Shown here piece by piece: positions 2,443 to 54,783 of a stretch of 64,000 nt of DNA. Position numbers and translations under genes: made by a program. The notes under the pieces are model-generated. The model was not told the origin of the DNA. It made no database searches and worked only from the letters and a program-made list of their open reading frames with translations. This DNA is from Phorcus lineatus (taxonomy: Eukaryota > Mollusca > Gastropoda > Trochida > Trochidae), in assembly GCA_921293015.1 (NCBI GenBank), contig OV121088.1, positions 26,387,645 through 26,451,644 on the forward strand. The letters run 5' to 3'. How positions within the stretch are numbered: position 1 is the first letter of the stretch; the number at the start of each line of letters is the position of its first letter.

Positions 2443-4113
2443 ATGCCGGTTGATATTGTCCAATACAGGCGGTCGGTTGGACTTTTCTCTTTGAAAAATT
2501 CATGCAAGGCATACGTAAACTTTATACTCTCATCAATCCTCTTTACTTCAAATTGTCTTTACAAATTACAAACTCCCTTATACATAATTATCTTGCTGTT
2601 ATGTTGTGGCGATATCCACCCTAATCATGGCCCACGTAAAGACGATCTTAAAATTGTTCATCTAAATGTAAGAAGTCTAAAGGATAAAATAGACCTGCTA
2701 TCTCTAGAATTCAATTCTTATGATGTAATCTGCCTAACAGAAACATGGTTGCATAACGGTATCCTCCAGAGTGATATATCCATCCCTAATTTTCATCCAC
2801 CGTACCGTAACGACCGTCCAAGCCGGGGTGGGGGTGTCGCTATATACGTTAAAGAGAACTTCTACGTTATAGACATGGACCATCTTCTCATTTCAGGACT
2901 CGAGGCGCAGTGGGTTCAAATAAAACGTAATAATAAGAAATACTTAGTCGGAAATTTTTACCGTGCGGATAAAAGTGATGCGTATTGGGATCTATTAGAT
3001 CGGTCAATATGTAATGCTATGACATTAAAGATGCGAACGATAATAACGGGAGATTTTAATATAGATATTCTAAATGAAAACAACGTTAAAATCGAGAGCT
3101 TAAAGGCATTATACGGACTGACGCAACTGATAACTGAACCAACTAGGATTACATCCACCTCTAGAACTTTGATTGACTTATTGTTTGTATCTAATGCTGA
3201 TAGCGTACTTAGTTCGGGTGTGTCTGATCCTATTTGTAGTGACCATTGTCCCATAAGTGTGACAATAAAGGATGATATTCCTAAAAATAATAATTTTAAA
3301 AGGAAGGTTTACAATTATAACATGATTGATGAAACAAATCTAAAAGATAACCTTAGTTCATTCGACTGGCAGACTGTTCTGTCAACAAACGATATTGATC
3401 AAGCAGCAGAAGCGTTTTCAAATTCATTTTTAGATATATGCAATACCCATATCCCAAATAAAACAGTAACTATTAGACCTAATGATCCATTATGGATTAC
3501 GGGTGATGTCCGCAGATTGATTCGAAAACGAAACCGTATACACAAAGTAGCTAAGAAATATAACCGACCATTGGATTGGGAAAAGTTTCGTAGATTACGG
3601 AATGACGTAATATCAGCTGTACGTACCGCAAAAAGGAAATTTGTCTCAAAAGTTGATGATAAGATAAACGAATCATACGGTAGCAAACTCTGGTGGCGCT
3701 TAGTCAAAAATTATCTAAAATCCACTGGCAACAAGACAATATTTCCACCCATCACATTTCAAGATGCAGTTTATGACGATGTAAATGATATCGTCACTAT
3801 AATGAATAACTACTTCTGTGATCAAGCAACTGTAACGACTCCCGATAAAACATTACCGGACTTAATTTTTAAAACTGATAAAACTTTATCTTCAATATCA
3901 CTGACTGTCTGTGAAGTTGAAGATATTTTACTCTCTGTTAACACCTCCAAAGCAACTGGACACGATGGCATCGGTAATCGATTACTAAAGCTTGGTGCCT
4001 CAGCAAAAGCTGATCCCTTATCGAAAGTCTTTAACTGCTCGTTATCAAAGTCAAATTTCCCAAATATTTGGAAAATAGCGTCAGTAATACCCATTCATAA
4101 GAAAAAATCGTAA
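2443..4113 (+). pseudogene. LINE ORF2, 5' part: endonuclease and start of reverse transcriptase
   Basis: ORF2 of a CR1/L2/Jockey-group LINE makes a protein that nicks target DNA and reverse transcribes the element RNA. Residues 1-55 are a hydrophobic leader ending in CGDIHPNHGP, a degenerate 2A-like motif. Residues about 68-280 are an APE-type endonuclease: HLNVRSLKDK, LTETWLH, GGGVAIYVKE, ITGDFNID, SRTLIDLLFVS and SDHCPISV (catalytic E, D, N, D and H visible). A basic linker (WITGDVRRLIRKRNRIHKVA) leads to the first RT blocks (NTSKATGHDGI, WKIASVIPIHKK). The frame stops at TAA 4111-4113. The sequence then jumps to late RT motifs in another frame, so the block carrying the first catalytic Asp is missing and the enzyme cannot be active. 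The first ATG is uncertain. Confidence 0.9.
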
Positions 4114-5414
4114 TCAACGGCTATAGCTCTGATTTTAAATCTGTCTCTGCCGGTGTCCCACAAGGTTCCGTTCTCGGACCACTGCTTTTCTTGATCTATA
4201 TTAATGACATTGTTGACGATATTGACAGCAATATACGGTTATTTGCCGACGATACATCGCTTTACGTAATAATTAATGACCCCAATGTTGCCGCTCAGAG
4301 CCTAAATGACGACCTGTCCGTCATTAACACCTGGGCTAACGAATGGCAAGTTGATTTTAATCCAAGTAAAACCGTCTCAATTCAATTCAGCCGTAAGCAT
4401 GCTCCGACTTTAAAACCAGTTTTATCTATGAATAATACACCTATAAATGACGTTTCATCTCATAGACATCTAGGATTAATTTTACAACAGGATTGCATGT
4501 GGCATAACCATATTGATAGTATTATCAAAAAGGTAAGTCCAACGATAAATTGCCTTAGAAGTTTTAAATACCGCCTCAATCGTAAAACCCTTCAGACCAT
4601 GTATAAATCATTTATATTACCAGTTTTCGATTATTCATGCCACATCTGGGATAATTGTACAAAAGAGCAATCTGTACTTCTAGAAAAACTTAATCTGGAC
4701 GCAATTATTACTATTACTATTACTATTTGTGGTGCCGTTCGCGGCACAAGTCATGAAAAGTTATACTCAGAAACTAATATTACTTCATTAGAGAAGCGTA
4801 GACATCGCCAGAAATTGTATGTCTTTTATAAGATGGTTAATAAACTAGTACCTGAATATTTATCAAACCTAATACCTGACACTGTGTCAGACGCAAGTCG
4901 GTACAATTTAAGAAACTATTCCGACCTTCAAAGCATAAAATGCAACACAAGTAATTACTCTAAATCGTTTCTACCAGACACGGTCAATATCTGGAATTCC
5001 CTCCCCCTGGACGTGGTCAACTCCAGCTCACTTGCAGAATTCAAAAGGAAATTAAAGGACACCAATAGCATCCCGATTCATTTTAATTTATTTCATGGGT
5101 CAAGATTCTGCCAGATAATTCATTCCCGTCTTCGGCTTGGCTGCAGTGACTTAAACGGTGATAAATTCATCAGATATATATCCGATACCCCTTACTGCAA
5201 CTGCGGTCATCACTTTGAGGATGCACTCCACTTCTTCCTAATTTGTCCCAATAACCACGAATTAAGACTAAACACATACTTTTTTCAAAAAGGTTATAAT
5301 CTACCATCTATCCTTTACGGCAACTCTGGCTCTACTGATCAACATAATAACAAACTTTTAAAATCTGTCTATAATTACATAGTTTCTTCTAAAAGATTTT
5401 CAGATTTGTCTTAA
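4107..5414 (+). pseudogene. LINE ORF2, 3' part: RT palm/thumb and C-terminal Cys-His knuckle
   Basis: Continues the preceding ORF in a different frame. Between about 4107 and 4190 the frame reads NGYSSDFKSVSAGVPQGSVL, then GPLLFLIYINDI, the RT VPQGSVLGP block. It goes on to RLFADDTSLYV (catalytic FADD), the thumb region SSHRHLGLILQQD, and QTMYKSFILPVFDYSCHIWD. The C-terminal knuckle is YCNCGHHFEDALHFFLICPN. About 150 codons expected between IPIHKK and NGYSSDF are absent, matching a deletion of roughly 450 bp. A short ATTACT repeat (4703-4729) has altered the usual sequence before GAVRGTS. It is followed by a plausible 3' UTR to about 5640. Confidence 0.9.
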
Positions 5415-16129: not shown

Positions 16130-16501
16130 TCACATACCCCATAACTTTAAATTATGGTCTGGTTTTCTGTGTTGGTCTAACCCTCAAAAGGGTCATGGTT
16201 GATAAGTGTATTAAGTTTGGTGAATCTAGCATGTGAAGTTTAGAAGATTTGCTCAGGAAAAATCACTTTATCATAGAGTCAATGTTTTAGTAATGTTTCT
16301 ATGGAAATCACAAAAAAATAAAAATCATTTGTTGGTCTAACCCTCAAAAGGCACATCTAGGGATCATGGTTGATAAGTGTATGAAGTTTGGTGAAACTAG
16401 CATGTATAGTTTAGGGAGATATGCTCCGGACAAAGATTTGTGACGGACGGACATACGGACAGAATGAACACTATATACCCCCGCTGTAAGGCGGGGGTAT
16501 A
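16130..16501 (+). repeat. two tandem units of the 'CATCTAGGGATCATGG' repeat with terminal hairpin
   Basis: Two units of about 160-180 bp share GTTGGTCTAACCCTCAAAAG and the TTTGGTGAANCTAGCATG segment. The array ends in (GGAC)-like repeats and a perfect hairpin TATACCCCCGC / GCGGGGGTATA (16474-16501, 6-nt loop). The same organisation recurs at 19500-20492 and, in related families, at 37887-38392 and 52265-52514. Origin unassigned. Confidence 0.75.
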
Positions 16502-19499: not shown

Positions 19500-20492
19500 C
19501 ATGTTACAAATGTGTATGAAGATTGTTGAAGCTAGCATGCATAGTTTAGGAGATATGCTCCAAAACGACTTCTCAGAGTCACTGTTCATGTAATGTTTCC
19601 ATGGTAACCACACAAAAATATAAAAAAGACACAGATCTTACCCTAAAAATGTCACAAATAGGTTTTTACCATCAAAAGGCATATTTAGACACATTGATTA
19701 CCATGTGCAGAAAGATTGGTGAAGCTAAGATGTATATTTTTGCACATAAACTCCAGACAAGACACCTTGTCATAGTCACCTTGTAAGTAAAGTTTTCCAT
19801 GGAAACCGCAAAAAATAAAATAAACAATCATTTGTTGGTCTAACTCTCAAAAGGCTCATTTTCGAATTATGGTTGATAAGTGTATTAAGTTTGTTGAAGC
19901 TAGCATGTATAGTTTAGGAGATATGCTCAGGAAAATGCCCTTTGTCTTAGTTATTGTTTTAGTTATGTTTCCATGGAAACTGAAAAAAAAAGAAAACTGA
20001 AAGGCACATCTATGGATCATGGTTGATAAGTGTATGAAGTTTGGTAAAGATAGCATGTATATTTATAAAGATATACTCCGTACAAAGGACTTTGTTACTG
20101 TTTTTGTCATGTTTCCATGGAAAGAACAAAAAATAAAAATCGTTTGTTGGTCTAACCCACAAAAGGCACATCTAGCTAGTTATAAGTGTATGAAGTTTGA
20201 TGAAGATAGCATGTATAGTTTAGGAGAAATGCTCCTGACAAGGACTTGGTCATTAAGTCACTGTTTTAGTAATGTTTCCATGGAAACCGCAAAAAATAAA
20301 AATCATTTGTTGGTCTTACTCTCAAAAGGCACATCTAGGGATCATGGTTGATAAGTGTATGAAGTTTGGTGAATCGAGCATGTATAGTTCAGGAGATATC
20401 ATCCGGACAAAGATTCGTAACAGAAGGACAGACGGACAAACCGACAGAATGAATGCTATATACCCCCGCTTACGCTGTAGGGCAGGGGTATA
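19500..20492 (+). repeat. six-unit tandem array of the 'CTAGCATGTATAG' repeat with terminal hairpin
   Basis: Units begin near 19500, 19680, 19870, 20020, 20170 and 20345 (150-190 bp spacing). Each has a GAAGCTAGCATGTATAG-like segment, a GATATGCTCC segment and usually the palindrome GTTTCCATGGAAAC. The array closes with GGACAGACGGACAAACCGAC and an imperfect hairpin TATACCCCCGC...GGGCAGGGGTATA (20459-20492). Short open frames here are repeat-derived. Confidence 0.8.
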
Positions 20493-24890: not shown

Positions 24891-25799
24891 TTGCTGCGTA
24901 TGTACAAATTATACATGGAAATAAAGATAAATCTTTCGTCCTTAAGACTGTGAAAAAATAATGAAAAGGTGCCAACTGGTTCAAAAGATATGAAAAACGA
25001 AAGAGTGATACGCTCAACTACTTGAAAACAAATTTTGATAAGCGTTCTATTTGCGACACCAGTCGCATCACTCACGGCATCGTTATTATGGACTGCGCAT
25101 ATGCATATTATACATGGAACTAAAGACAATTCTATTCCCTTGAAATAGGTGAAAAAATATATAAAAAGTATAAAATAGTTCGGGAGATATGAACCGCTAA
25201 AGAGCGACACCCTCAACTACTTGAAAATAGATTTTGACAATTGTTTTATTTGTGACATTTGTCGCTGCACTCTCCGCACCATTTTTATTAATTGCGCACA
25301 TGCATATTATACATGGAATTAAAGACCATTCTTTCTGCGTGAGAAAGGTGGAAAAAAAATTAAAAAGTGCCAAATAGTTCGGGAGATATGAACCGTTAAA
25401 GAGGGGTACCCTCAGACATTTTGGGAAAAAAATTTATAATTGCAACATTTCTCGCATTATTTGCCGCTTCTTTATTATGTGTTGCGCACATACACATTTC
25501 AAAATGAATCAAAGCCAGTTCTTTTCCCTTTACGATGATGTAAAAAGTATGAAGTTTCGCCACCCGATTCTAAGAATACAAATTGCGAAAGATCGGGGGT
25601 ACATTCGTGATGCGGCTCGTATCGAACGTCCAGTGACAGCTCACATTGACTTTCTCTGTCTCTTTTACGACTTAAAAAAAAAAGAATATTTTATTGACAA
25701 TCAGTATTTTATATTACACTTATTCATCTTATTGATGTGAAGAATAAACTTTATAAGGAGAGTAACGCTCATCCACACTTCTGCTTCTTTCTTCTTTCT

Positions 25800-27800
25800 T
25801 CAATCTTCTTGATTATCCCCCTCATTTTCCTTCTCTGACATCAAACTGATATAAGCTTTAGTGCAATCTTGTGACGGGTGATAAATTCTGAAACATGGTG
25901 CTGCACATAGAGCCACATTACACTCGATACATTCGAAAGACGATTCTTTGCCTACCCTTTTCTTCTTTCGAACTGATTTGTTTCTTCGAATTCCCTTCGA
26001 CGAAGTTCTCTATTCGCTTTGAAGCAAACAACACACATGCGTGAGAGGTTTTTCTTCTTTCCAACAGGCTTAATATTTGATGGAAAGTGACGACCATGGA
26101 GTCGCAAGACACTATCGTCGCTCGTGCTTGGCCGGCCGCGAGGACGTCTGTGCAGGGAGGGCACTTTTTCTGTTTCGGCGAAGGTGATCACATGCTGCAC
26201 CAAATCTGTTCTAAATTGACGGCTTGTTCTCAAAGGTTTGTCTTCTGAGAATTCTTTATAGATAATGTAAGAATTCAACATGGCAACGTTCAACACATGA
26301 AACCACACACGCTTCCACCATTTAAGAGTTTTCATTTTGAACAGGGTGTACGACAGCATCTGGTCGGCCCGATCCACACCTCCCATATATTTGTTGTATT
26401 CGTGCACAATACGTGGTCTTGTATTTGCTTCCCCAGTCACTCGGTTCTTCTTTCCTGTCTCTACAATTTTGGCGTCTTCTACGGTTGACATGAGCAACAC
26501 TGACTTCCTGTCCTCATACCGCAAAACGAGTAGGTCTTGATTGTGATAGACTGTCATATCCCCTTTCTTCTGTTTCTTCTGTGCCTTCTTTAGCTTTTCA
26601 GGAATGCCTTTGCGATTTCCTCTCAAAGTTCCCGTCGCACCAGTTCCCATTTCCCACAAGTTTATATACAATGCCACCGAGGAATAGAAATTGTCCATGA
26701 ACACATGATACCCTTTCCCAGCATATTCCTTCACCAAGTCCATGACGAGATCTTCCGTTTTCCCACCAACAGAAACAGCTTCATTTGTTTTTCCAGTGTA
26801 GAGTTTGAACTTGCAAACATAACCATTTGTTGAGTCACACAACATGTAGGCCTTTATCCCATACTTCTTCGGCTTGTCGGGATTATATACTTTGAAACTC
26901 AGATTGCCTTATAAGGCACCAACCCTTCGTCAACACAAATGTTTTGATGCGGCTTATAAACTCTGGAAAAACGATGCACGATGCGTTCGTACAGATAGCC
27001 AAGTTTATTCATTGGTGAAAAATGCGGAGTGTTTCGTCCCGGCATTAGGTTGTTATCATTCAAATGTAGATACGTTAGCAGAAGCCAGAACCTGTGGCGG
27101 GGCATGCACTTGGAAAAGAAGGGCGTCGACGTAACATCACTTGTTGACCAATACTCAGAGAAGTTTCTCTGTACAACCAGAGACATTGCTATTGTCATTG
27201 CAATGAATACTTTCATTTCTTCGGCATTCGTATCATACCAGTGCCTCAACCGTGAACAGGGTTTCAGAACCTTATCATCGACCTGTTGGTGGAAGTATCT
27301 GTTGGTTTCTGCTTCCAATGATCCATAATCATCTTCATGAAAAAACAGTCCGAAAAAGTCTACAGGTGCGGGTTATCAGGCAATTCTATGAACCGTCCTA
27401 ATCCAGTTGCGCAAGTAAAATGCAATTCAACACGTCCACGTTGCCTCGGCCCCTCTTCCCAGCGATCCATAAAATTATCTTGGCCATCAAAATGTGTGTC
27501 CATTTCATTATATTGCTCGTCAAAGCCACTGAACTCTTCCTCTGTGGAAGTACCAGCCGTAGCAGTTTCACCCGTACCAGCTAATATGTCTCTTTCAATG
27601 TTTCTTATTTCTTGATCACTATCAATGTCACTTTCACTATCAATGTCACTTTCACTATCACTGTCACTGTCACTATCACTCTCATCAGTTGATTCCATAT
27701 CAGAAGCTTCATCGGCATGGACCTCGTTGATGAAGTCGTCGTCGCTAGACGTTGACGGACCTTCCCAACTCCTGGTTCGCGGCCTCCTGGCCTTAGGCAT
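25800..27800 (-). pseudogene. piggyBac transposase, near-complete with three frameshifts
   Basis: DDE-type transposase that excises piggyBac elements and inserts them at TTAA. It starts at MPKARRPRTRSWEGPSTSSD (27800). An acidic Ser/Asp repeat region follows (about residues 35-65), then the DNA-binding region (FHQQVDDKVLKPCSRLRHWY, FIAMTIAMSL). The catalytic core shows ICVDEGLVP (first Asp), VFMDNFYSSVALY (second) and YNKYMGGVDRADQM (third). A C-terminal zinc finger, ECIECNVALCAAPCFRIYH, ends at the stop at 25800. Single-base frameshifts occur near 27365 (after LPDNP), near 26908 (after VPYK) and near 25960 (after ERRK). All key residues survive, so the copy is only lightly decayed; assembly error could explain some shifts. 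Confidence 0.92.
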
Positions 27801-27989
27801 CTTTCACATCAATCTGTAAATGATTGAAAATAATTTAGGCACACGCAAGATATAATAACATCAACACATGACCTGTTGTACAGATAAATTCAATGTGAGC
27901 TTTATGGACATTCAATTGCCACATTTTGTAAGTGTTTGAAACAAATTTGCCGTTGCGCGGCTTTGGCGCCAGCGGTCATCAATAATCCG

Positions 27990-35839: not shown

Positions 35840-36210
35840 AGCATCTACAGCCCCCAATATGCACCGAGTTCAAATTGTTTCCATGGAAACCAAGCAAAAT
35901 GAAAAATTAAGAATAACCAAAGTAGCAAAAGGCATTACCCAAGCACTCTAATCTATCACAATCTAATCACATACCAGGTTTAGTAAAATAATACTCATTA
36001 GATTTTAATAGAAAGGTTGGAAAATTACCCTACCCCCATATGCACAAAGTTCAAACTGTTTCCATGGAAACCAGAAAAAAAATAAAAAATTGAGTAACCA
36101 AAGCAGCAAAATAAAGGCACCACTCCATCACTAGATCTTACAAAATCCCAAGTTTCCAAAAGAAATATTGAACAGTTTTTTAGATATGGCCCAGAAACGA
36201 AAGCATACAA
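35840..36210. repeat. two tandem units with GTTTCCATGGAAAC
   Basis: Two units about 182 bp apart share TATGCACNNAGTTCAAANTG, the palindrome TTTCCATGGAAAC and AACCAAAGNAGCAAAA. Related to the tandem repeat families at 19500 and 52265. Confidence 0.6.
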
Positions 36211-37640: not shown

Positions 37641-37886
37641 AAAATAGTTTTGCTATCATCATTTCGAGTTTGTCTTTAGATAAACTATGAAGTGTTTTTA
37701 CTCGTAAAAACAGATGTCTCCCCCGTACACCATTTCAGCATATTGGGTTTTTTTTGAAAATTCTTATCAGTTATTTTAAACTCAAATAAAATTTAAATTT
37801 TTTTCTATTTATAACAACATAAACTTTAGGTTTTGGTTAATGAACATCTCCGAAGTTTTGACAAAATACAAAAAGAAAATATAAAA

Positions 37887-38392
37887 TTGAAAAAGAAGTT
37901 GAAACCCCCAAAAGCACATCTACATGATATGAATTGGATATGTACCAAATTTGGTGAAGATTGGTCATGTAGTTGTAAAGTTATGCTCCGGAAACTAACC
38001 CTACCCTTTAAAATGACAACTCCAAACTATTGCCAAGGAAATAAAAAAAAATGAGAATTGAAAAAGAAGTTAAAACCCCCAAAAGGCACATCTACATGAT
38101 ATGAATTGGATGTGTACCAAATTTGGTGAAGATTGGTCATGTAGTTTCATTGTTGTGCTCCGGAAACTAACACTACCCTTCAAATTGACTAAGTCCATCC
38201 TGTGGCTATGGAAAAAAAATAAAAAAATCGAAAAAGAAGTTGAAACCCCCAAAAGGCACATCAACATGATATGAAGAGGATGTATACCAAATTTGGTGAA
38301 GATTGGTCAAGTACTTTCAAAGTTATGCTCCGGAAACGCTCAGGAACGCCAACGCGGACGCGGCCCCCTTCGGTGGGAGACATATTTTAGAG
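37887..38392 (+). repeat. three-unit 171-bp tandem repeat inserted in the LINE
   Basis: Units start at 37887, 38058 and 38228. Each begins TTGAAAAAGAAGTTGAAACC and contains CACATCTACATGATATGAAT, TTTGGTGAAGATTGGTCATG and GCTCCGGAAAC. It sits between the RT and endonuclease parts of the LINE and ends near GGTGGGAGACAT. The unit is related to the one at 52265. Confidence 0.8.
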
Positions 38393-38814
38393 AGAAGTGT
38401 TTAATCAATATTTTGAAAATTATTTCTACATTCATCTTCTGAACAACTTTTCCAATTCCTTATATTTTATATATCTTAGTGCTTAGATCTTCTGTTACTA
38501 AGAAAGAAATTCAGCCCAGCTTGTTGTTAGGGGTTTCTTTTCCAAAAAGTATATTTTGTAACGTCAGTGTTTACTTCTCTTGATGCATTCAGTATGTTAA
38601 TGTTTTACCAATGATCTATAAGGATTTGTCGAGTCGAGGGTTGTTAACGTGTTTATAATTTTTTATGTCTATCGAGGGATCTAAAACAAGGTTCCAATCT
38701 CCACAGATCACAATGTACTCGTTACCCATGTCAATTATCTTATTGAAGAAATCTCTTTAGAATTAAGAATTGTCTAAATTTGGTCCATACAAGTGTAACA
38801 GAAGTGATTTTAAG

Positions 38815-38895
38815 ATCACCTCCAGCGGGATTTGAACCCAGGACCTCCGGGTGAGAGTCCTACACTCTACCGATTCAGCCAAAGAGATATCCCTC
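38815..38895 (-). ncRNA. tRNA-like sequence inside the TRIM 3' LTR
   Basis: Minus strand from ATCTCTT through TGGCTGAATCGGTAGAGTG (A-box-like) to GGTTCAAATCC (B box) and TGGAGGT. Acceptor arms pair at about six of seven positions with wobbles; D-stem at three of four; T-stem at four of five. The anticodon arm is irregular (AGGAC...GTCCT with an oversized loop), so it is unlikely to be a working tRNA. It could still be an internal RNA polymerase III promoter. Confidence 0.6.
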
Positions 38896-39084
38896 TGGCC
38901 AAAGCCAGTAGGAATGATTTAACTTCACCCTGCCACATACACCCCCTCCACAAAGTGACTCGTCCTCGAGTCCAGCCAAAATGGAGTCATAAAGCACCTC
39001 AGTTCGACGTACTCAGGGTGCAGTGAGCACTAGAGAGTTGCCCCGGCCCCACGTTGGGCGCCAAACGTAACAGAAGTGATTGTG

Positions 39085-39157
39085 AGATCACCTCCAGCGG
39101 GAATCGAACCCGGTGAGAGTCCTACACTCTACCAATTCAGCCAAAGAGATATCCCTC
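39085..39157 (-). ncRNA. tRNA-like sequence inside the TRIM 5' LTR
   Basis: Same structure as in the other LTR, with a perfect B box GGTTCGATTCC and A-box-like TGGCTGAATTGG. A 10-bp deletion in the anticodon/variable region shortens it. Its position inside the 5' LTR would place a pol III start upstream of the primer-binding site. Confidence 0.6.
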
Positions 39158-39599
39158 TGGCCAAAGCCAGTAGGAATGATTTAACTTCACCCTGCCACAC
39201 AAGTTTGTAAGAGTTAGCCTTATACCCTCTATAGTCATATCCAAAATAATAAAATTTCCATTTCAATCTTTAGAAATCTTATGTATTTCACATTCAAAAG
39301 AATTACTTAATAGAATGGCTACTACTCGAGAATTTGCCTTAAAAGGTGAACTAACGCAATCAATTAATTTTCCTTATGATTTTCATGGTCTTTATAAATT
39401 TAGCATGTCTTGCAGACATTTAATCAAGAATTTCTTTTTTCTGTATGTTGGCGCTTTCTAAGACAACGTTAACACTCTCAATAATTTCTGTCATCAAAAT
39501 TAACTTTTTTATTTAGGGTTTTCCCCAGTAACTTCTTTCAACCATTTTATTATGGGAATCAAGCTAAAACCTTTTAAGTGCAATTCTCTACTTATAAGT

Positions 39600-41650: not shown

Positions 41651-41955
41651 GGGGGGCAGGATAGCGCAGTGGTAATCTCATTCAGCTTTGGATTAAGAGG
41701 TCCGTGGTTCGAATCCCGCCAGGGGCTCGGCAACTTTGTCTGCAGTAGAGAACTGTTCTACATGCAGTCAGGTTTGGGTGCAATTCTACACTGAATTTCA
41801 GCGCAGTACCACCCATGGTTCACTAGTTCCAGTCGATGCTCGCAGGTTTCACCGCATTGCATGCCCACAATGGTGTTGCGGGTTTTCTCCCTGCAATAAT
41901 ACTAGCATCCGCGATATAAGTGAAATACTCTTGAAAGCGGCGTTAAACACAAACT
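41651..41955 (+). mobile_element. tRNA-derived molluscan SINE
   Basis: The head has a pol III A box (ATAGCGCAGTGG, 41661-41672) and B box (GGTTCGAATCC, 41706-41716). A conserved central region follows (CAGTCGATGCTCGCAGG, TGTTGCGGGTTTTCTCC). The 3' end GAAATACTCTTGAAAGCGGC plus GTTAAACAC is the LINE-derived tail common to mollusc SINEs. Transcribed by pol III and mobilised by a partner LINE in trans. Apparently full length. Confidence 0.8.
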
Positions 41956-42067
41956 CCCCTCACCTAAAAATCATAATCCCCATTAACTGAGGACTCTTCA
42001 GATTTCTAGGCCTTTTGCACTGGAAACGAAGATGAAATTAGGTTTTTAAGGTGTGGCCTGTTACCCT

Positions 42068-47943: not shown

Positions 47944-48375
47944 GTGTCAGAAACAAGTTTGCCCCGTTTCATTCATGAACTTTGTGATGACAGTGGTAGA
48001 AATCAGGGCATGTTGTTAGGACATCTTGTAAAAAGACTTTGCAAAGTCGAAAATCAAGAATTCCAATTACTGTTGGATGACTTGCCAAAGGTGCTGAAGG
48101 CACCCACAGCTGCCAACTTTGTGTCAACATTATCAACTTTGATAACATCTTCTGACTTCCTAAGCAATGACAAAACAAGTTGCGTAGATTGCCTTATACG
48201 TCAGGGAGGTTCTGATTGTTGGATATGGATTAGTAGAGTTCTGCAACTCTTGACTTCTCTTCCTAGAAATAGGTTTAACGGACATATCATCAAGGAATCA
48301 CTACTCCACCCATTTGTTCACTCAACAGAACTCATGCATTATGCATTATATTTTTTTGGAGGCAGGTTGACATGA
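47944..48375 (+). CDS. 143-codon ORF divergent from piggyBac transposase, function unknown
   Basis: Open from just after a TAG (47941-47943) to 48375; the first ATG is at about codon 23 (MLLGHLVKRLCKVENQEFQL). The protein is leucine-rich and looks helical (LLLDDLPKVLKAPTAANFVS, CLIRQGGSDCWIWISRVLQL). It lies head-to-head with the transposase fragment, and a diverged counterpart exists in copy B (27990-28270). Presence in two copies suggests it belongs to the element family. A captured host exon is the alternative. No known domain recognised. Confidence 0.5.
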   Translation: MSETSLPRFIHELCDDSGRNQGMLLGHLVKRLCKVENQEFQLLLDDLPKVLKAPTAANFVSTLSTLITSSDFLSNDKTSCVDCLIRQGGSDCWIWISRVLQLLTSLPRNRFNGHIIKESLLHPFVHSTELMHYALYFFGGRLT

Positions 48376-49400: not shown

Positions 49401-49639
49401 CGTCTTTTATTTAATTCATTTTCATAACTAAAAGTTATGATAGAAATAACGTTAGATCAGGGAAATAAGTCTTAGCTAATGTTCAACTTAGACAGTAATT
49501 TTTCTTCGCCGAACATTAAAAATTCAAAATGGCGTCGATCGATAAGATTATTTACAAACGGATCAATTTCAAATTGATCAAACTGGATTCCCAATCGTAG
49601 TAATTTATATATTTTTAGGAATTGAATATAACAAAAAAA

Positions 49640-49915
49640 AACACTTAAATATGTTATATTAATTAAAGTCATTTTATTTCATTATTTTGACAATGTGTTG
49701 ACATCGTTGCTTCCAGTTTGAATCGTCATGGTATGTCTATAAAATTGTCAATTAAAAATGTATTTCAATAGATTATAATGTTTTCTAACTTTTAATGGTA
49801 ATATATAACAAACAGTAAAGTATGTAATAATTATTAAAGTAATTTTATTTCAATATTTTGACAATGAGTTGACATCGTGGCTTTCGGTTTGAATCTCGTC
49901 TGTTTGTCTCCTACC
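49640..49915 (+). repeat. two tandem units about 175 bp apart
   Basis: ATTTTGACAATGTGTTGACATCG at 49684 recurs as ATTTTGACAATGAGTTGACATCG at 49856, with matching upstream TTAAAGTNATTTTATTTC. No coding function. Confidence 0.6.
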
Positions 49916-53533: not shown

Positions 53534-54050
53534 TCACCGGGGATTGTGGACAGTATCCGATGGCACGATTAATAATTCTTCTTTAACAAAGCCTCGCCCT
53601 GGTCCATCTTGTAAGTAATAAAGTGTTGGTTCACCCTTTTTAGAAACATATCGACTAATTTTATATATTTTAAGAGACCATATGGGATCCGTTGCTCTAA
53701 ATCTTTGATCACCCTCGTGTTCACCCGGTTGAAATAAATATCTTACGTTAACTCTATCTGGTATTATTTTTTCATCTCTTAATAAAGGTGCAGAAGATTC
53801 AGCCACAACTGATTTCAATTTAATAGCTTTTATAGGTTTCTTATTTATAAGTCGAGTCTCTTCATTATTTATTGCCGATATAACCTCGGGCAATCTACTT
53901 ACCCATTCGGTAGACCTTGTCTTTGGATTCTTTAATGGCTTGTTTCATTAACCATGCAATTCTTCGCTTCTGCCTTAGTGACCTTTGCAGCCTTGGCGAG
54001 TTTATCTACAGCTGCTAGCTAGGCCTTTCCAATATCCCTGGAGGCTATAA
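53534..54050 (-). pseudogene. Polinton/Maverick-type integrase with catalytic core deleted
   Basis: The C-terminal part is clear: RSTEWVSRLPEVISAINNEE, VRYLFQPGEHEGDQRFRATD then PIWSLKIYKISRYVSKKGEP and GRGFVKEELLIVPSDT, the chromo/SH3-like tail of retroviral-type integrases in Polintons and related elements. Just upstream (53925-54050) a short N-terminal piece reads LAAVDKLAKAAKVTKAEAK. The DDE core that should separate them (roughly 200 residues) is absent, so this is an internally deleted pseudogene. Assignment to Polinton rests on family memory plus the adjacent DNA polymerase. Confidence 0.7.
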
Positions 54051-54099
54051 TAAATCTTTTGCATCTTCTTCGAAGAAGACATCTCTTATATAAGAAGGA

Positions 54100-54783
54100 T
54101 TATGTTCTTAAATACCCATATGCGTATGTATTTACACCATCATCGGCAATCCATCTTTTCGTATCTAATGGAGATAATGATGTCTTTTTAAGTCGCATTG
54201 CGTACATATTATGTCCTTCACTTCTCAAAGTATTCATTTCATGTTTAAAAGTCTTCTTATCGAATAATGCCTCTTTATTCTGCTTAAGGTTGGTATAATT
54301 CTTAACTACATACTTTTTAATTCCTTTAGCTTTCTTAATTTCTGCTTTAGATTTTTTAATACAATACATCTTCGGTCTTAATCCGACGTATTCAGAAATA
54401 GGAACACCCGAACATTCGTCCTTAAATTTACCTAAAACCTTCTTATTTTTTATGCTGTCCAATGGGTGGGCCTTATCAAAATCACTAGTATCGTACAAGT
54501 CAATTTTTTCTTTCATGTCTTCGTAAACATCATCGGTTTGTATCTCTAATAACAAAGAATCTGTATCGGTATATAATACTTCGCATTTATTTCCATATTG
54601 TTTCTTCATCTCATTATAATAAAAGTCATACATTAAGTGTTTCGATAAGTCTAATATACTCATACCAACGTATATTGGTTTGTTCAATTTTACTTTTGTT
54701 TTATTCATATGAACAGCGGCTAAATCGTGGTCAAAGATTCTAAATTCATTAAAAGCAGGATTAGCAATAGCCTTTCTTCATGG
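54100..54783 (-). pseudogene. protein-primed family B DNA polymerase, C-terminal fragment (Polinton/Maverick)
   Basis: Polintons replicate with a protein-primed DNA polymerase B. The frame from about 54783 gives AIANPAFNEFRIFDHDLAAV, KPIYVGMSILDLSKHLMYDF, the catalytic motif VLYTDTDSLLLE, DKAHPLDSIKNKKVLGKFKD and EYVGLRPKMYCIKKSKAEIK KAKGIKK, ending at a stop at 54100. The exonuclease domain and palm motif A are missing upstream. It ends 50 bp from the integrase remnant on the same strand, supporting one truncated element. Related animal virus groups share this polymerase, but nothing viral such as a capsid gene is visible. Confidence 0.85.

Follow-up and report, generated by a model that had tools for sequence, protein, structure and literature searches.

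The closest described relatives of the element reported here are the Helenus TRIMs, which carry a tRNA-derived sequence in their LTRs (Kojima 2024, PMC10886601). Helenus elements are 311-1263 bp long, present the motifs TRGCY...YGG and GGTTC in the LTR together with a primer-binding site (PBS) and a PPT, and show 4-bp target duplications in the animal families (PMC10886601). In bivalves, 51 families are distributed among five orders of Pteriomorphia, with tRNA-Lys, His, Ile, Pro, Glu or Ser as primers (PMC10886601). The PBS region of animal Helenus is resembled by Gypsy elements only, which makes Gypsy the likely helper, and conservation has been reported around both boxes (PMC10886601). The predicted structures of Helenus do not support a tRNA function (PMC10886601). 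A 2026 meeting report cites the group again (PMC12859917).

Among TRIMp3 (pol III-transcribed TRIMs), transcription by pol III was validated for Cassandra only (PMC10886601). According to the same article, transcription of Cassandra begins within the 5S-derived part of the 5' LTR and terminates within the corresponding part of the 3' LTR (PMC10886601).

In the 64-kb window (the whole stretch of DNA that was analysed), positions 38794-39199 very probably hold a full-length TRIM of the Helenus type in a mollusc genome, for which we infer RNA synthesis and mobilisation in trans by Gypsy machinery. The complete element was recognised by its LTR pair, PBS, purine tract and single 4-bp duplication, and its sense strand is the minus strand. 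With 406 bp, two LTRs and no coding capacity, it is as short and as simple as Helenus TRIMs are; no stop-to-stop frame of at least 110 aa overlaps its interior.

The 3' LTR (TGTGGC...TGTTACA) covers 144 bp at 38794-38937, and the 5' LTR (TGTGGC...TGTTACG) covers 134 bp at 39066-39199, both on the minus strand. Across 134 aligned bases, 6 substitutions separate them; in addition, the 5' LTR has one 10-base gap, immediately before the B box. The two direct repeats of 144 and 134 bp that had been proposed are borne out by a self-BLAST match with an E-value of 4e-50, as is the 128-bp interior lying between them at 38938-39065 (minus strand). Their reported TG...CA ends hold for the 3' LTR, which ends in CA, but not for the 5' LTR, which ends in CG. 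Comparison of the flanks also recovered the expected CAAG duplication, at 38790-38793 on the 3' LTR side and at 39200-39203 on the 5' LTR side (strand not assigned). This agrees with the 4-bp duplications of animal Helenus, in one insertion only, and, at this base composition, two fixed positions would agree by chance over 4 bases 1 time in 194. Within the 64-kb window there were no further copies of the 406-bp element. The LTR and PBS patterns gave 0 matches in viral and prokaryotic contig collections, a result of little weight as these collections may omit relatives of the window's genome.

The PBS, TGGCGCCCAACGTGGGGC, is located at 39046-39063 (minus strand), by the 5' LTR as had been described, two bases (TT) after its end, and agrees with the tRNA-Lys1,2 site in 18 of 18 bases. 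An identical 18-letter sequence carries the label Lys,1,2 among tabulated PBSs (PMC1084362), and the PBS of human foamy virus matches that of the element over its 17 quoted bases (PMC3386198). As in Helenus, the site is complementary to a tRNA 3' end, that of Lys in this case, just inside the 5' LTR. When the PBS letters were used as literature search words, the matching titles concerned retroviruses or tRNA methylation. The purine tract, GGAGGGGG, is at 38942-38949 (minus strand), followed by TGTA and then by the 3' LTR. Because these 4 bases intervene, the tract is near the 3' LTR and not adjacent to it: the preliminary description was right about its presence but placed it directly next to the LTR. 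A purine tract at this end is also a Helenus feature.

Each LTR contains A and B boxes in tRNA order, as the preliminary description had stated. On the minus strand, the A boxes of the 5' LTR (TGGCTGAATTGG, 39132-39143) and of the 3' LTR (TGGCTGAATCGG, 38870-38881) agree with the consensus in 11 of 12 bases, and the B boxes (GGTTCGATTCC, 39100-39110, and GGTTCAAATCC, 38828-38838, respectively) in 11 of 11. The gap from A to B box is 21 bases in the 5' LTR and 31 bases in the 3' LTR. With a strict setting (at most one mismatch in the A box and an exact B box), the window gave three places, namely the two LTRs and a SINE at 41662, and none of its 60 dinucleotide-shuffled versions had such a pair; these shuffles preserve the composition of the whole window, which is lower in G+C than the element. 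With a looser setting (at most two mismatches in A and one in B), the window gave 6 rows, against an average of 1.3 and a maximum of 5 in the same shuffles. Both LTRs also present TGGCT...TGG or CGG, plus GGTTC, in agreement with the Helenus motifs.

The tRNA likeness of the LTRs is partial. In the 3' LTR, the tRNA-like stretch spans 72 nt (38817-38888, minus strand), with 6 of 7 pairs in the acceptor stem (two of them G-U), 3 of 4 in the D stem and 4 of 5 in the T stem. In the 5' LTR, it spans 62 nt (39089-39150, minus strand) with the boxes in tRNA order. The matching stems of the preliminary description are therefore present to this extent, but the tRNA-like stretch has no regular anticodon arm by inspection. 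A tRNA detection on the LTR, which had been suggested as a check, did not back a true tRNA: on the element, ARAGORN found no tRNA and Rfam gave nothing at gathering score. At an E-value of up to 10, Rfam returned six rows, all under their gathering scores: Virus_CITE_3 twice, ssNA-helicase, RMST_4 and the tmRNA T-arm twice (best T-arm row with an E-value of 0.0021). We take these six rows as chance or T-arm likeness. RF00005 was not among them (two same-clan matches were omitted by the tool), and 5S rRNA was absent as well, so the element lacks the mark of a Cassandra type. The misses of ARAGORN and Rfam carry little weight because the ordinary tRNA-SINE head at 41662 was missed too.

That SINE is tRNA-headed, lies at about 41652-41960 on the plus strand (extent set by eye) and has the A box TAGCGCAGTGGT and the B box GGTTCGAATCC; neither ARAGORN nor Rfam detected it. 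Its tail ends in ...CTTGAAAGCGGCGTTAAACA, which we assume to be typical of bivalve SINEs.

Altogether, every testable feature of Helenus is present in the element when it is compared with the published description. It is like animal and bivalve Helenus in its length, in the tRNA-like A and B boxes of both LTRs, in the tRNA-Lys PBS and purine tract, in its 4-bp target duplication and in the inferred Gypsy helper. Thus, a TRIM-like element with a tRNA-like promoter in its LTRs, as proposed in the preliminary description, was the right structural reading and fits animal Helenus (PMC10886601). The novelty implied for such an element in animals does not stand: it has been in print since February 2024, bivalves included (PMC10886601). 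Among the papers listed by our literature searches, no report of tRNA-like LTRs was seen besides the Helenus work, and five LTR sequence words used as literature queries gave no matches. The element is real and its kind is already known, so one more copy of this little-studied class, in which LTR elements acquired a tRNA promoter, adds little by itself.

Other described systems share less with it. The LTR of Cassandra, a plant TRIM, likewise carries a pol III promoter, but this comes from 5S rRNA instead of tRNA and the LTR has conserved terminators, whereas the LTRs of the element have no run of four T. The nemertean Ajax is also an animal TRIM whose LTR promoter comes from a small RNA, but that RNA is 5S, and Ajax has 5-bp duplications and a tRNA-Leu primer (PMC10886601). 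The TRIM biv-TRIM, from bivalves, differs in its repeats of 202-218 bp (TDR), its interior of 77-80 bp and the lack of an unambiguous tRNA PBS, and 'polymerase III' has 0 occurrences in the main text of its report (PMC6934838). The element does not fit biv-TRIM, with LTRs of 134 and 144 bp, an interior of 128 bp and a PBS of 18 of 18 bases. Finally, tRNA-derived SINEs have pol III A and B boxes too, but they lack LTRs, PBS and purine tract and are mobilised by LINE machinery.

At the level of transcription and mobilisation, the element would be transcribed by pol III, or by pol II from neighbouring DNA, into an RNA that begins close to the A box in the 5' LTR and extends into or past the 3' LTR. 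This RNA would then be packaged and primed with tRNA-Lys, and the proteins of an autonomous Ty3/Gypsy element using the same primer would perform its copying and integration in trans. Use of the boxes by pol III is probable though well short of assured, mainly because Kojima reports conservation around them (PMC10886601).

How the RNA is made is also the point on which the best-surviving alternative differs. It holds that the element is an ordinary pol II TRIM whose LTR happened to capture part of a tRNA from a SINE, where the boxes are passengers and transcription comes from pol II or from neighbouring promoters. We regard this as possible but unlikely. The distribution of T runs is in its favour: neither LTR has a run of at least four T, and the only such run of the element is a TTTT in the interior (38978-38981, minus strand, the sense strand), a possible weak pol III stop; the next such run is 108 bases away from the element, outside it. 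Because the LTRs lack T4 and the interior has TTTT, a pol III RNA may stop early or run on, and this pattern argues against simple transcription of this copy in the manner of Cassandra. It also fits a pol II TRIM that the tRNA fold is not favoured. The sense strand, however, has no TATAAA, TATATA, AATAAA or ATTAAA (TTAAAT occurs once per LTR), and both boxes are still consensus-like, which, with the conservation described by Kojima, argues for their use (PMC10886601). A concrete question raised by the element is whether pol III truly transcribes Helenus, given LTRs without a T4 run.

It is very improbable that the two repeats are independent tRNA-derived SINE insertions in tandem, with no LTR element at all. 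The A and B boxes of each repeat do resemble those in the head of a tRNA-SINE, and a tRNA-derived SINE sits 2.5 kb away. However, neither repeat alone is duplicated at its borders: the sense-strand flanks are ACTTG/TTTGG for the 5' LTR and GTGTA/CTTGT for the 3' LTR, and CTTG (sense strand) flanks the whole unit only, at the chance of 1 in 194 given above. Both repeats start and stop at corresponding bases, an A-rich tail is absent from both by inspection, and the 18 of 18 tRNA-Lys PBS and the purine tract occupy the positions expected in an LTR element. We rejected the tandem insertions for the one shared duplication and the PBS. Separate target duplications had been named in the preliminary description as what would overturn an LTR element, and only the outer flanks agree.

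That unrelated repeats resemble LTRs by chance or artefact is next to impossible: a single copy was seen, but the self-match (E-value of 4e-50), the 0 of 60 shuffles, the 18 of 18 PBS and the duplication (1 in 194), all at LTR-element positions, refute it jointly.

For the Helenus-type TRIM, no Gypsy partner was identified in the window among the 10 ORFs scanned. The tail of the interior has the pattern CTCGAGGACGAGTC followed by a G run, which we take to resemble the 3' tail of Gypsy elements. One viral contig matched this pattern, with reading frames that look phage-like by eye, and we take this match as chance.

A second concrete question is how such an RNA avoids tRNA processing, and a rod fold of the LTR is a testable answer. 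Folding predicts an RNA rod of 24 pairs with a 4-base loop and two bulges in the 3' LTR (38863-38916, minus strand) and the same rod in the 5' LTR (39125-39178, minus strand). The core of the predicted rod corresponds to LTR bases 22-75, its hairpin includes 7 G-U pairs, and it would pair the LTR sequence just upstream of the tRNA-like stretch with the half of that stretch that contains the A box. The main text of the Helenus paper has 0 occurrences of 'hairpin', 'palindrom' or 'inverted', and we saw no account of a rod fold in it (PMC10886601).

The LTR folds reach -61.6 kcal/mol (z -5.1) and -54.1 kcal/mol (z -4.2), with 0 of 200 shuffles as stable for each, and 0 of 3000 shuffles fold as well as the 3' LTR or its rod segment (bases 21-76). 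The antisense strand of the 3' LTR folds less stably, at -40.7 kcal/mol. Compared to the best LTR fold, enforcing a cloverleaf costs 15.8 kcal/mol in the 3' LTR and 18.6 kcal/mol in the 5' LTR. When all 406 nt are folded together, the most stable structure (-180.3, z -8.1) has the rod arms of each LTR paired with those of the other instead of with one another, so the local rod is not assured in the full RNA; the A-box half is likewise paired there, but by the other LTR. All 6 LTR substitutions spare the predicted rod pairs, as do 1973 of 20000 random placements, and 1036 of 2000 simulated LTRs are at least as stable as the 5' LTR. As random placements and simulated LTRs do as well, these comparisons give no support for selection on the rod. 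What favours the predicted rod is its stability against shuffles, in one sequence.

If the rod forms, its pairing of the A-box half would prevent tRNA folding of the RNA. On this model, the LTR rod would be a working part of the element, with the DNA keeping a tRNA promoter and the RNA escaping cutting by RNase P and RNase Z; we consider this quite improbable. If true, it would explain how an element whose genomic RNA has to remain intact can use a tRNA promoter within it. It would also predict compensatory changes that preserve the rod, rather than the cloverleaf, among Helenus copies and families.

Several other features were observed in the window. Short direct repeats of about 80-105 bp with a spacing of 160-181 bp occur at 49636-49895, 35852-36111 and 16170-16434; they showed no A/B box pair at the settings used and no tRNA-Lys-type PBS by eye. 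Tandem arrays with units of 163-199 bp are found at 37871-38337, 20000-20412 and 24908-25414, the first of which ends about 450 bp from the TRIM element. Two frames at 53534-54777 (minus strand) look by eye like a Polinton-type integrase tail and a protein-primed DNA polymerase, with no Pfam match at an E-value of 0.001. For the ORF at 47944-48375, no relative was found at an E-value of 0.001.

Two proteins in the window have relatives that point to a mollusc, probably a bivalve, as the host. Positions 2443-5414 hold a non-LTR retrotransposon (LINE) whose endonuclease and reverse transcriptase domains lie in two frames that overlap. For its frame at 2443-4113, the 13 organism-named entries among the 120 matches listed were Mercenaria, Patella, seven MAGs of Candidatus Thiodiazotropha (symbionts of lucinid bivalves) and four others, namely a coral, a beetle, a fly and Moritella. 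A piggyBac-like transposase is located at 25952-27803 (minus strand): the frame at 25952-26908 matches DDE_Tnp_1_7, and those at 26899-27372 and 27360-27803 would be its front part, by position and eye. Among the 120 matches listed for the frame at 25952-26908, 16 were organism-named: seven bivalves, the brachiopod Lingula and eight others (insects, frogs and fishes), which the bivalves and Lingula outscore.
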